Assembly: GCA_018716015.1 (NCBI GenBank)
Contig: DVKM01000062.1
Coordinates: 1 to 60,143 of the forward strand
Direction of reading: 5' to 3'
DNA length: 60,143 nt
Source of the DNA: Candidatus Enterenecus stercoripullorum
GTDB taxonomy: Bacteria; Bacillota; Clostridia; Oscillospirales; Oscillospiraceae
Below are positions 46,419 to 52,954 of this stretch, piece after piece. The notes below the pieces were generated by a model. That model had not been told where the DNA came from and ran no database searches. It worked only from the letters and a program-made list of their open reading frames with translations. Positions within the stretch are counted from its first letter, which is position 1; the number at the start of each line of letters is the position of its first letter. Made by a program: the position numbers and the translations under genes.

Positions 46419-46434
46419 TGGCACGGGTCTTGCA
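46419..46434 (+). promoter_or_regulatory. Sigma-54 (-24/-12) promoter of the BKACE operon
   Basis: TGGCACGGGTCTTGCA is a full match to the -24/-12 consensus, with GG and GC 10 bases apart. The predicted start near 46445 gives a leader of about 40 bases to the ATG at 46488. Confidence 0.9.
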
Positions 46435-46487
46435 ATTTATCAAAACGGATTTTGTTCCATCACATGTTTGAAAAGGAGAGAACAGCC

Positions 46488-47273
46488 ATGAAAATCATCG
46501 ACCTGACCATGCTTCTGGAAGAGGACCTGCCCAGCGATCCTGAAATCCAGATCCCCAGGATCCAGCGCTTGGACCATAAGGATACGGCGGAGCAGATGCC
46601 GGCCTACTTCCCCGGTACCACCACGGAGGATCTGCCGGGCGGCAACGGCTGGGCCATCGACTTTGTCAAGATGTGTACCCACTCCGGCACCCACTTGGAC
46701 GCGCCCTGGCACTACTACCCCACCCAAAACGAGGCCATTATTCCCGGCGGTGAGAAGGCGTGGACCATCGACCAGGTTCCCCTGGAGTGGTGCATCGGCC
46801 CCGGCGTAAAGCTGGATTTCCGCGACAAGCCCGACGGATACAAGATCAGCAAGCAGGATGTCCAGGACTATCTGGCCAAGATTAACTACACCCTGAAGCC
46901 CGGCGACATTGTGCTGCTCAACACCGGCGCAGGCAACCGCTGGGGTACTCCGGAGTACCTGGTGGCGGGCGCTGGCATGAGCGCTGAGGCCACCCTCTGG
47001 ATGTGCGAGCAGGGAGTGCATGTAGTGGGCACCGACGGCTGGAGCTGGGACGTGCCCCTGCCACTGGAGGCCAAGGAGTTTGAAAAAACCCACGACAAGT
47101 CCATCATCTGGGAGGCCCACCGGGCCGGCCGGCAGCGCGCTTACTGCCACATCGAGAAGCTGACCAACCTGGAGAGCCTGCCTGACTATGGCTATACTGT
47201 ATACGCCCTTCCCATCCCCGTCAAGGGGGGCAGCGCTGGCTGGTGCCGCGTCATTGCCATCCTGGACGAATAA
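46488..47273 (+). CDS. Cyclase family metal-dependent hydrolase (kynurenine-formamidase-like)
   Basis: This 261-residue protein is of the Cyclase family (PF04199), which includes arylformamidase KynB, isatin hydrolase and other Mn/Zn enzymes that open amides, lactones or cyclic imides. The metal motif is HSGTHLDAPWH (His65, His69, Asp71, His75); late residues GTDGWSWD and KSIIWEAHRAGRQRAYCHIE fit larger family members. AAAGGAGAG precedes the ATG. It is the first gene after the sigma-54 promoter. Near genes for a transporter, CoA-transferase, thiolase and BKACE, it probably performs the first hydrolytic step on an imported substrate, exposing a carboxylate. The substrate is unknown. Confidence 0.88.
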   Translation: MKIIDLTMLLEEDLPSDPEIQIPRIQRLDHKDTAEQMPAYFPGTTTEDLPGGNGWAIDFVKMCTHSGTHLDAPWHYYPTQNEAIIPGGEKAWTIDQVPLEWCIGPGVKLDFRDKPDGYKISKQDVQDYLAKINYTLKPGDIVLLNTGAGNRWGTPEYLVAGAGMSAEATLWMCEQGVHVVGTDGWSWDVPLPLEAKEFEKTHDKSIIWEAHRAGRQRAYCHIEKLTNLESLPDYGYTVYALPIPVKGGSAGWCRVIAILDE

Positions 47274-47337
47274 CGGGAAACCGGTCTTTATCCGACTTAA
47301 GACCATATACGTCTGTGAGAGTGAATAGGAGGAAATT

Positions 47338-50737: not shown

Positions 50738-51895
50738 ATGAACCAACGAGACGCTGTGATTGTGGCCTATGGCCGCTCTGCGGTGACCAAAGCATACAAG
50801 GGCGGCTTTTCCAAGGTGCATCCGGTCACCTTTGCCGCCAAGACCCTCCAAGGGGTCCTGGCTAGAGTGCCCCAGCTGGACCCTATGGAGATCGACGACG
50901 TGATCGTGGGCTGCGCCAATCCGGAGGGGACGCAGGGGTGGAATATGGCCCGGTTGATCACCCAGCTGGCCGGCTTGCCCAAAGAGGTTGCAGCCCAGAC
51001 GGTAAACCGGTTCTGCTCCTCTGGCCTGCAAACCATCGGCACCGCCGCCAACGCCATCCTCGCCGGACAGTGCGATGTGGTGGTGGCGGGCGGCGTGGAG
51101 AGCATGACCCGCATCAAGAACATGTTCCTGGAAGAGGAGTTCCGGGATCCAGCCCTGGTGGAAAAATACAACGAGGCCTATATGGCTCCGGGCTATACTG
51201 CGGAGCGGGTGGCCCAGCTGTGCCACATCACCCGGCTGGAGATGGAGGAGTTTGCCGTACGCAGCCACGCGTTGGCTGCCGCTGCCCAGGACGCAGGCGC
51301 TTTTGGCGACCAGATCATCCCCATCACAGTTCCCGGTCCGGACGGCGCCGCCCGGGTGATCGACCAGGACGAGGGGATCCGCCGGGGCACTTCCCTGGAG
51401 GGGCTGGCCGGGTTGAAGCCCTGCTTTGAAGGGCTGGTGACTGCGGGCACCTCCTCCCAGATGAGTGACGGGGCCGCCTTTGTGGTGGTGATGAGCCGGG
51501 AAAAGGCGGACAGCCTAGGCATTGCGCCCATCGCCCGCTTTGTTGGCTTTGCGGTGGCGGGCTGTGAATCGGAGTATATGGGCCTGGGGCCCATCTACGC
51601 CGTGCCCAAGCTGCTGCGGCGCACTGGTATGTCACTGGACCAGATGGACACCATCGAACTCAACGAGGCCTTTGCCGCCCAGGCCATCCCCTGTATCCGG
51701 ACCCTGGGGTTTGATGTGGAGAAGGTCAATCCGGAGGGCGGAGCCATCGCCCTGGGCCATCCTCTGGGGGCAACCGGTGCGGTCCTCACCTGTAAGGCCC
51801 TGTCCAGACTGCGCCGCAAGGGCGGACGCTATGCCCTGATCACTATGTGCATCGGCGGCGGCCAGGGCGCGGCCGGAATTTTTGAAATGCTGTGA
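50738..51895 (+). CDS. Thiolase (acetyl-CoA C-acyltransferase)
   Basis: This 385-residue type II thiolase has all catalytic residues: nucleophile Cys93 in TVNRFCSSGLQTIG, GHPLGATG (His341) and the second Cys in MCIGGGQGAAGIFE (Cys371). NEAFAAQAIP is also present. The degradative/biosynthetic thiolase fold cleaves acetoacetyl-CoA with CoA to two acetyl-CoA, or acts on a longer 3-ketoacyl-CoA. It is 14 bases after the CoA-transferase gene with AAAGGAG. It fits a pathway end that recovers acetyl-CoA. Confidence 0.94.
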   Translation: MNQRDAVIVAYGRSAVTKAYKGGFSKVHPVTFAAKTLQGVLARVPQLDPMEIDDVIVGCANPEGTQGWNMARLITQLAGLPKEVAAQTVNRFCSSGLQTIGTAANAILAGQCDVVVAGGVESMTRIKNMFLEEEFRDPALVEKYNEAYMAPGYTAERVAQLCHITRLEMEEFAVRSHALAAAAQDAGAFGDQIIPITVPGPDGAARVIDQDEGIRRGTSLEGLAGLKPCFEGLVTAGTSSQMSDGAAFVVVMSREKADSLGIAPIARFVGFAVAGCESEYMGLGPIYAVPKLLRRTGMSLDQMDTIELNEAFAAQAIPCIRTLGFDVEKVNPEGGAIALGHPLGATGAVLTCKALSRLRRKGGRYALITMCIGGGQGAAGIFEML

Positions 51896-51923
51896 GAATT
51901 CTATATTAGGAGGCTGATTGGTT

Positions 51924-52766
51924 ATGGCAAAGAAAACAATTATCACGGTGGCCACCACCGGCGCGTGGCCCAAAAAGGAAAACAACCCCCATGTGCCCAT
52001 GACGCCCGCGGAGATCGCGGAAGATGTGTACGACTGCTGGCAGGCCGGCGCGGCCATTGCCCATCTGCATATGCGGGATGACAACGGCAACGGCACCATG
52101 GAGACCGCCAAGTTCCGTGAGACGGTGGAGCTACTCCGGAAGAACCACCCGGACTGCGACATTATCCTGAACATGACTACCTCCGGCGCACTGGTGGCCA
52201 GCGACGATCTGCGCAAGGCCCACCTGAAGGAGCTGCGCCCCGAGCTGGGCACCTTCGACTGCGGCTCCATGAACTGGATGAACACAAGCTTGTTTCTCAA
52301 TCCGCCCCAGTTTCTGGAGCAGCTGGGACTGGACATGCAGGAGTGGGGGGTCAAGCCCGAGATTGAGGCCTTTGACCCGGGCATGATCGCCAACGCCGCC
52401 TACTATCTCAAGAAGGGCGTGCTGAAGGCCCCCCTCCACTTCCAGTTCTGCATGGGCTGCGCCAACGGCATCCCCGGCAGCCTGAAGAACCTGCTGTTCA
52501 TGAAGGAGACCATGGACAGCCTGTGCCCCGGCTCCACCTGGAGCTGCTTCGGCGTGGGCCACTCCGCCATGGAGATCCTGTACGGCGCCGTGGCCCTGGG
52601 CGGCCACATCCGTGTGGGCATGGAGGACAACGTGATGTACGCCAAGGGCGTGCTGGCCGACAGCAACCGGCAGTTTGTAGAGCGGGCGGCCCGGGTCATC
52701 CGGGAGTACGGCAATGAAGTGGCCACCCCCGCCGAGGCCCGAGAGATTCTGAACCTGAAGAGATGA
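51924..52766 (+). CDS. Beta-keto-acid cleavage enzyme (BKACE, Kce-like)
   Basis: This 280-residue TIM-barrel enzyme is of the BKACE (DUF849) family. Members condense a beta-keto acid with acetyl-CoA and cleave it to acetoacetate plus a new acyl-CoA; Kce does this in lysine fermentation. Zinc ligands are His47 and His49 in AIAHLHMRD and Glu234 in RVGMEDN, with Arg230 matching the catalytic arginine position of Kce. Other segments are NMTTSGALVASDD, NWMNTSLFLNPP and FQFCMGCANGIPG. AGGAGG is 10 bases before the ATG at 51924; TTG 51918 is possible. No lysine-fermentation neighbours (kamA, kdd, kal) are present, so the substrate is a different, unidentified beta-keto acid. Confidence 0.92.
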   Translation: MAKKTIITVATTGAWPKKENNPHVPMTPAEIAEDVYDCWQAGAAIAHLHMRDDNGNGTMETAKFRETVELLRKNHPDCDIILNMTTSGALVASDDLRKAHLKELRPELGTFDCGSMNWMNTSLFLNPPQFLEQLGLDMQEWGVKPEIEAFDPGMIANAAYYLKKGVLKAPLHFQFCMGCANGIPGSLKNLLFMKETMDSLCPGSTWSCFGVGHSAMEILYGAVALGGHIRVGMEDNVMYAKGVLADSNRQFVERAARVIREYGNEVATPAEAREILNLKR

Positions 52767-52954
52767 GTTGGGGACCCAGCCTGTTCTACTACCACTGCCC
52801 CCATTGCGGGAAGCGGTTTAGCTGCGAGGATGGACTGATCCCTGTTTTAGGGGATCGCTTCGGGAAATGCCCTGTCTGCGGAGCAGAGGGCGTGCTGGAG
52901 TGTACTGGCCCCCGCATCCCAGATGACCAGGCCTATGAGGAGGTCTGGGACTAA
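52763..52954 (+). CDS. Small zinc-ribbon protein at the end of the BKACE operon
   Basis: This 63-residue protein contains two CxxC knuckles (FYYHCPHCGKRFSCEDG and RFGKCPVCGAEGVLEC), a typical zinc-ribbon/rubredoxin-like fold, and an acidic C-terminus (DDQAYEEVWD). Its ATG overlaps the BKACE stop (ATGA), which argues that it is genuinely translated and functionally tied to BKACE. No known family recognised. It is the last gene before the terminator at 52970. Confidence 0.72.
   Translation: MSWGPSLFYYHCPHCGKRFSCEDGLIPVLGDRFGKCPVCGAEGVLECTGPRIPDDQAYEEVWD

Follow-up and report, generated by a model that had tools for sequence, protein, structure and literature searches.

The closest described system to the operon reported here is the phloroglucinol gene cluster of Clostridium scatologenes. 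In the published account (PMC10470551, mBio 2023), phloroglucinol is degraded via PGR, DPGC, which is of the cyclase family, TfD and TAL. TAL, triacetate acetoacetate-lyase, is described there as a beta-keto acid cleavage enzyme (BKACE) with Trp16 in place of the Glu14 of Kce, converting 3,5-dioxohexanoate (triacetate) and acetyl-coenzyme A (acetyl-CoA) to acetoacetate and acetoacetyl-CoA. We analysed a stretch of 60,143 nucleotides from Candidatus Enterenecus stercoripullorum (Oscillospiraceae; contig DVKM01000062.1), hereafter the window, in which a six-gene operon and a divergent regulator gene (REG) are found. The operon encodes a cyclase-family hydrolase (CYC1), a symporter of the SSS family, a CoA-transferase, a thiolase, a BKACE and a small zinc-ribbon protein. 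It shares with the C. scatologenes cluster the TAL-type BKACE, the thiolase, the CoA-transferase and a cyclase-family hydrolase gene 5' of the BKACE gene, and the zinc ribbon is shared with some related clusters, but it is without PGR, TfD and DPGC, its cyclase is of another subfamily and its transporter is SSS. We find it fairly probable that this sigma-54-controlled operon enters the phloroglucinol pathway at the triacetate node via CYC1, with triacetic acid lactone as the likeliest substrate. The end of the pathway (TAL, CoA-transferase and thiolase) is not new; the novelty is the upstream hydrolase in place of PGR, DPGC and TfD. Genomes, contigs and loci used for comparison are given by our own numbers (G, C and L).

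The BKACE is of the TAL type

The BKACE of the window has Trp15 at the position of the Kce Glu14 (alignment with 2Y7D). Trp was found at this diagnostic site in all 19 DPGC-linked BKACEs, and Glu in the four Kce-type sequences (L062, L065, L170, L171). In a tree of 53 BKACEs, from which the C. scatologenes TAL itself is absent and which carries a long-branch warning outside the TAL clade, the window BKACE belongs to a clade of 15 sequences with support 100/100: nine DPGC-linked, two CYC1-linked, one beside another cyclase and three others. It is 81–86% identical to the nine DPGC-linked members (L056, L058, L064, L066, L172, L173, L174, L178, L180) and 53–65% identical to the DPGC-linked BKACEs outside the clade. 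The DPGC-linked and CYC1-linked BKACEs are interleaved in the tree, well-supported branches forcing at least eight changes of the CYC1 label and at least five of the DPGC label. PGR, TfD, DPGC and BKACE genes occur together in 12 of the 20 annotated loci (in three of the 12 the PGR or TfD match is only 33–35%), and the DPGCs of L056–L058, L063, L064 and L066 start with the Trp20/Tyr22 pair named in PMC10470551. Judged by the Trp in place of Glu14 and by the grouping with BKACEs of phloroglucinol clusters, the window BKACE is of the triacetate acetoacetate-lyase type, and we infer that it acts on 3,5-dioxohexanoate.

The NCBIfam model for 3,5-dioxohexanoate:acetyl-CoA acetone transferase (NF053538) gave the window BKACE 209 bits, below the cut-off of 430. 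This TAL clade seems to fall outside the scope of the model, because three DPGC-linked BKACEs also stay below the cut-off (L064 206, L058 219 and L163 207 bits). The best NCBIfam match is instead Kce, which is of the same family (211-bit match to 2Y7D; Kce structures are PDB 2Y7D-G), but with the Kce model NF052387 it scores 297 bits and does not reach the cut-off of 382, as compared to 423 bits for the Kce control L062. With this score, the Trp and a clade separate from the Kce-type sequences, Kce and lysine fermentation were rejected. The initial annotation was thereby right that the substrate is not 3-keto-5-aminohexanoate, but its description of the BKACE as uncharacterised with a novel substrate was not supported, the type being already known from the phloroglucinol degradation outlined above. 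Labelling such BKACEs as Kce of lysine degradation would mislead. A search for lysine aminomutase (PF09043) found no match in the genome of the window nor in the controls, and is uninformative. Among the PDB matches, none was named TAL or DPGC.

A second BKACE is encoded in the same genome (L047, 14313–17821 on contig C91). It has Ala at the Glu14 site and sits between two 3-hydroxyacyl-CoA-dehydrogenase-like genes (31–33% to TfD), beside what by eye are branched-chain-type ABC transporter genes; this reads as a further beta-keto acid pathway, perhaps a carnitine-like one.

CYC1 is a cyclase-family hydrolase distinct from DPGC

The Pfam score of CYC1 places it in PF04199 (Table 1), and the HxGTHxDxPxH stretch is present as HSGTHLDAPWH. 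Its identity to DPGC is low, 25–26% with the four DPGCs aligned, and the Trp20/Tyr22 pair of DPGC is lost, the aligned residues being Asp17 and Glu19; CYC1 is therefore not DPGC. The Asp17-Pro18 pair does not vary among 33 CYC1 sequences. The predicted structure (predicted local distance difference test, pLDDT, 95) had isatin hydrolase A as its best PDB match (5NNA, E 6e-19, TM 0.72, 22% identity). According to the model, CYC1 shares the fold, and also the HxGTHxDxPxH stretch, with isatin hydrolase and kynurenine formamidase (5NNA, 4M8D, 4CO9), but it is only 17–23% identical to these and forms a clade of its own with the invariant Asp17-Pro18. It is likely to be a metal-dependent hydrolase. 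Direct use of isatin or formylkynurenine was considered and set aside, the matches being weak (arylformamidase 30 bits versus 223, isatin hydrolase A E 5e-7). The tree of CYC1 sequences places that of the window in a clade of nine (97/95), seven of which are TAL-linked including that of genome G232; L035 (genome G032) and L097 are not.

Two TAL genes, probably side by side, in G232

G232, a 99% complete genome of the same family as that of the window, carries both a phloroglucinol cluster and a CYC1 operon. Contig C37, with PGR-TfD-DPGC, breaks off within a TAL gene, and so does contig C22, with REG<>CYC1-SSS, at the same residue of TAL; between these gene halves 440 of 454 bases are identical (97% in DNA). 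C-terminal parts of TAL are also found twice, on C22 at its opposite end and on C25 at a contig end; over 151 bases these two are 98.7% identical. On C25 the TAL part is followed by an MFS gene, just as MFS follows TAL in G022, a sibling of the same genus. The linear order is probably PGR-TfD-DPGC-TAL-(REG<>CYC1-SSS)-TAL-MFS, with a circular C22 as the alternative. In the linear and the circular arrangement alike, two almost identical predicted TALs serve the phloroglucinol cluster and the CYC1 operon. The twin TALs together with the interleaved BKACE tree suggest that both hydrolases give the same product. The simplest cause of both would be that DPGC (through TfD) and CYC1 (directly) deliver 3,5-dioxohexanoate.

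CYC1 and TAL-type BKACE genes recur together

The closest operon, L034, has the regulator, CYC1, SSS, CoA-transferase, thiolase and BKACE at 70, 86, 84, 64, 65 and 56% identity. Such operons, or parts of them, are also found in L036, L073, L077 (Enterococcus crotali), L096 (Gilliamella apicola), L110 (Zophobihabitans entericus), L151, L206, L207, L211 and L212, and regulator, hydrolase, transporter and BKACE genes occur together in L036, L210, L211 and L212 as well. The core of the operon thus recurs in relatives, but the full six-gene set was seen in none of them, L034 having all but the zinc ribbon. The combination of CYC1 with a TAL-type BKACE is found in Oscillospiraceae, other Bacillota and Orbaceae.

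In a sample of the family (CYC1 threshold at least 42% identity), six of 12 CYC1 genes lie within 7.5 kb of a BKACE gene (P about 4e-7), and with the window left out five of 11, as compared to about 0.3 expected (P 7e-6); both P values are rough and post hoc, computed after the pattern was noticed, with rounded genome sizes and related genomes treated as independent. In the larger set of 105 CYC1 genes, a TAL-type BKACE (at least 50% identity to that of the window) was found within 7.5 kb in 11, or 12 counting G232, where the contig ends within the BKACE gene, and another BKACE in 12, one of them doubtful (L117, 29%). G232 (L036) is labelled as having none in this count, and many loci are cut by contig ends or by the ends of the fetched stretches, so that none means none in the stretch available. 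L100 and L101 were dropped, having no CYC1 open reading frame at the threshold, which left 78 of 80 loci; L218 has no such frame either. No PGR, TfD or DPGC match above 45% lies within 7.5 kb in the 22 BKACE-linked CYC1 loci listed, as far as the stretches reach, G232 being a likely exception.

Most proteobacterial CYC1 genes have no BKACE in reach, and some are beside fumarylacetoacetate (FAA)-hydrolase and TRAP genes. When counted from gene clusters, with one representative of each named by Pfam, the CYC1 relatives of Proteobacteria (L084, L094, L095, L112, L113 and others) often had an FAA-hydrolase-family gene (in 15 loci) and genes for TRAP DctM (in 17 loci) as neighbours, suggesting that they make diketo acids too. 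In other relatives the neighbours are reductases of the Old Yellow Enzyme type (in L042 by Pfam, in L037 by eye) or Tct-like genes, seen by eye, and a nitroreductase (L041), and reductive variants of the module may exist.

Phloroglucinol genes in the genome of the window

The assembly of the genome, 1.83 Mb in 114 contigs, is 87% complete. CYC1 was its sole PF04199 match, and no second gene of this family was found. TfD and PGR were not recognised in it, the best matches of 35% and 29% being at the level of general family members, and DPGC was not found in the assembled 87%. TAL alone was found of the four proteins that make up a phloroglucinol cluster, in the operon as in the assembled genome. 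A complete phloroglucinol pathway in this genome was rejected, with PGR, TfD and DPGC not found in an incomplete assembly.

Promoter and activator site

Exact matches to the -24/-12 motif number two in the 60 kb, and with at most one mismatch there are eight as compared to 6.4 expected, which by motif alone is unremarkable. The significance of the promoter rests on its position in the 436-base intergenic region, where TGGC-N7-TTGC has a shuffle probability of 0.002 (shuffles were run on the first four regions, the window, L034, L035 and L036). The same motif is present in the equivalent region of the latter three, where REG homologues, 59–70% identical, are in the same position. TGGC-N7-YTGC was also seen in L206, L211, L151 and L210, with a loose match only in L212, in total in eight of the nine regulator-linked intergenic regions examined. 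RpoN is encoded in the same genome, on another contig. The sigma-54 control that was first proposed is thus supported at the level of sequence by the box, the AAA activator and RpoN.

The intergenic regions of L034–L036 also have in common a palindrome, TGTAA-N8-TTACA, and this pattern, derived there, occurs once in the window at no more than one mismatch, with 0.23 occurrences expected. L206 has an exact copy, L211 and L151 have copies with one mismatch, and none was found in the intergenic regions of L210 and L103. A match in L212 was discounted, as it lies at -20, where a ribosome-binding site is expected. The palindrome is present in seven of ten regions examined, and its copy in the window is predicted to be the binding site of the PAS-AAA-Fis activator.

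Proposed pathway and alternatives

The SSS symporter would import a small, probably anionic, ring compound, which CYC1 would open with water to 3,5-dioxohexanoate in one redox-neutral step. If the TAL-type BKACE acts as the C. scatologenes enzyme, triacetate and acetyl-CoA would become acetoacetate and acetoacetyl-CoA, and from their families the CoA-transferase (284 bits with TIGR03948, below the cut-off of 674.8) would activate acetoacetate and the thiolase yield acetyl-CoA. The regulator is predicted to act via the site at 46230 on the promoter at 46419. The order of import, hydrolytic opening and BKACE cleavage, suggested already in the initial annotation, remains the likeliest reading of the SSS, CYC1 and TAL-type BKACE genes. 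If CYC1 delivers triacetate, its substrate would be expected to have the same oxidation level as this product, because there is no dehydrogenase in the operon. The sum C6H6O3 + 3 H2O -> 3 acetate has no redox change, and fits both of the isomers triacetic acid lactone and phloroglucinol.

We rank triacetic acid lactone (4-hydroxy-6-methyl-2-pyrone, cyclised triacetate) before phloroglucinol as the likeliest substrate, because only ester hydrolysis would be needed, because the lactone is an acid and would suit the symporter, and because CYC1 would be superfluous in G030 and G232 if phloroglucinol were its substrate. The lactone could arise from triacetate leaking out of phloroglucinol fermenters, which would explain CYC1 at the phloroglucinol locus of G232. 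The reaction proposed for CYC1 is that of triacetate-lactonase (EC 3.1.1.38), an activity reportedly described in old Pseudomonas work, for which we know of no gene. Judged by titles and abstract openings, a literature search gave no paper on a gene for this lactonase and none on bacterial degradation of triacetic acid lactone. No paper joining a beta-keto acid cleavage enzyme with the cyclase family was found either.

It is conceivable, although unlikely, that CYC1 hydrolyses phloroglucinol via its 1,3,5-triketone form directly to triacetate, so that one enzyme, without prior reduction, would replace PGR, DPGC and TfD. PGR and TfD cancel in redox terms, all three enzymes were unrecognised in the (incomplete) genome, CYC1 is in the superfamily of DPGC, and phloroglucinol is an isomer of the lactone. 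However, DPGC and CYC1 are both present in G030 and G232, where having the two would then be redundant, the aromatic stabilisation would have to be overcome without reduction, and the transporter is SSS as compared to MFS in L064, L178 and L194. The presence of both hydrolases in G030 and G232, and the completeness of 87%, would also agree with an ordinary phloroglucinol degrader that has PGR, TfD and DPGC in the unassembled 13%, CYC1 and the symporter doing an unrelated job. This we hold to be quite improbable, as these genes usually adjoin TAL (all four in 12 of 20 loci), which is here in the CYC1 operon, and as the pairing of CYC1 and BKACE recurs without them in distant taxa. Lysine fermentation is hardly credible at all: against Kce as the best NCBIfam match stand the score below the cut-off and the Trp in place of Glu14.

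Several observations weigh against the preferred reading. The gene order in G232 is inferred from contig ends, and in a metagenome-assembled genome that is 87% complete, the lack of PGR, TfD and DPGC may be due to chance. Other BKACE subgroups are also found paired with relatives of CYC1, with Gly at the diagnostic site in L038, L039 and L041, and Val or Ile in L075, L088, L091, L092, L103, L127, L210 and L211, and 82 of the 105 CYC1 genes (81 with G232 corrected) are labelled as without a BKACE nearby. The CYC1 family is therefore not tied to triacetate, and the clade as a whole does not predict it. Even in the closest operon, L034, the BKACE is only 56% identical, though with Trp at the site. 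G032 (L035) has the regulator, CYC1 (67%) and SSS without an adjacent BKACE, and the three most similar BKACEs that it has elsewhere (52–54%) carry Ile, Val and Met. Because of L034, G032 and the other subgroups, other beta-keto acids are possible products. There is accordingly some chance, though a small one, that CYC1 makes a substituted or longer 3,5-dioxo acid accepted by the TAL-type BKACE; in some CYC1-linked BKACEs the Trp is replaced by Phe, Tyr or Val, suggesting that the side chain varies, and no Trp-type BKACE was among the three examined in G032. Yet the window BKACE is within the TAL clade, and in G232 the partial copy and that of the phloroglucinol cluster share 97% DNA identity; hydrolysis of triacetic acid lactone to triacetate is still the reading we prefer.

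Layout of the operon and accompanying genes

The reading frames of all six genes and of the divergent regulator are open (Table 1), and with the Pfam and NCBIfam matches the gene set first annotated, with its PAS-AAA-Fis activator, was confirmed. The gaps from CYC1 to the zinc ribbon are, in order, 64, 80, 14, 28 and -4 bases, the ATG of the zinc-ribbon gene overlapping the stop of the BKACE gene. For the BKACE a TTG at 51918 is an alternative start, less likely than the ATG at 51924. The GC content of the operon bins, 0.61–0.64, is similar to that of the flanks and drops to 0.54 at 45001–46500, and no clear foreign island was seen by composition across the operon bins and flanks.

Table 1. 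Positions of the operon genes and of the associated sites in the window.
Feature	Position	Strand	Basis
Divergent regulator REG, PAS-AAA-Fis sigma-54 activator	44663–46051	-	Pfam PAS_4, Sigma54_activat, HTH_8; GAFTGA in translation
Predicted upstream activator site TGTAA-N8-TTACA, one mismatch	46230–46247	+	Motif scan
-24/-12 sigma-54 promoter TGGCACGGGTCTTGC	46419–46433	+	Exact motif match
CYC1, cyclase-family (PF04199) hydrolase	46488–47273	+	Pfam E=5e-39, 134 bits vs cut-off 23.1
SSS-family sodium:solute symporter, C-terminal extension of about 170 aa	47338–49320	+	PF00474
CoA-transferase, AcetylCoA_hydro family, TTG start	49401–50723	+	PF02550/PF13336
Thiolase	50738–51895	+	TIGR01930, 418.7 bits vs cut-off 240.55
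BKACE, TAL type, ATG start	51924–52766	+	PF05853; clade; Trp15
Zinc-ribbon protein of 63 aa, two CxxC	52763–52954	+	CxxC pairs; homologues near TAL-type BKACEs
Terminator-like hairpin 3' of operon	52970–53002		Scan match on minus strand; palindrome with TTTT end on plus strand too

The homologues of the zinc-ribbon protein in nine loci compared (L056, L061, L064, L066, L173, L174, L175, L180, L163) are 39–62% identical to it, and in eight of these the gene lies directly 3' of a TAL-type BKACE gene, a regulator lying between the two in L163. A homologue is present in seven of 19 DPGC-linked loci, and none was seen in the other 12. Two members that were scanned had no Pfam match, and that of the window had no NCBIfam match either. 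The available text of PMC10470551 does not mention the ribbon, and names zinc solely in its reference list. This small protein travels with TAL, for which it is possibly a zinc carrier or a small regulator.

For the C-terminal extension of the SSS symporter, winged-helix matches were weak (E 2e-4 and 5e-4) and stayed below the cut-offs, and SSS relatives beside CYC1 are of similar length, 653–671 aa in L034–L036, L079, L103, L207, L210 and L212. Between the SSS and CoA-transferase genes a strong, GC-rich hairpin without a T run can be seen by eye at 49340–49375 (GGGAAGGCGG...CCGCCTTCCC), possibly an mRNA stability element. Read by eye, the minus-strand genes adjoining the operon (53748–60120) form a set for aromatic amino acids, with prephenate dehydratase, chorismate synthase, EPSP synthase and 3-dehydroquinate synthase.

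Implications

The candidate substrates are few enough to be covered by a small assay panel. If CYC1 is a lactone hydrolase, it would provide a gene for the reported triacetate-lactonase activity, and if it opens phloroglucinol, this would be a new way of breaking a phenol without oxygen or reduction. The hydrolase/TAL module would constitute a second entry to the triacetate node of polyphenol fermentation in gut and soil, seen in Oscillospiraceae, in other Bacillota including an enterococcus, and in the Orbaceae of insect guts.

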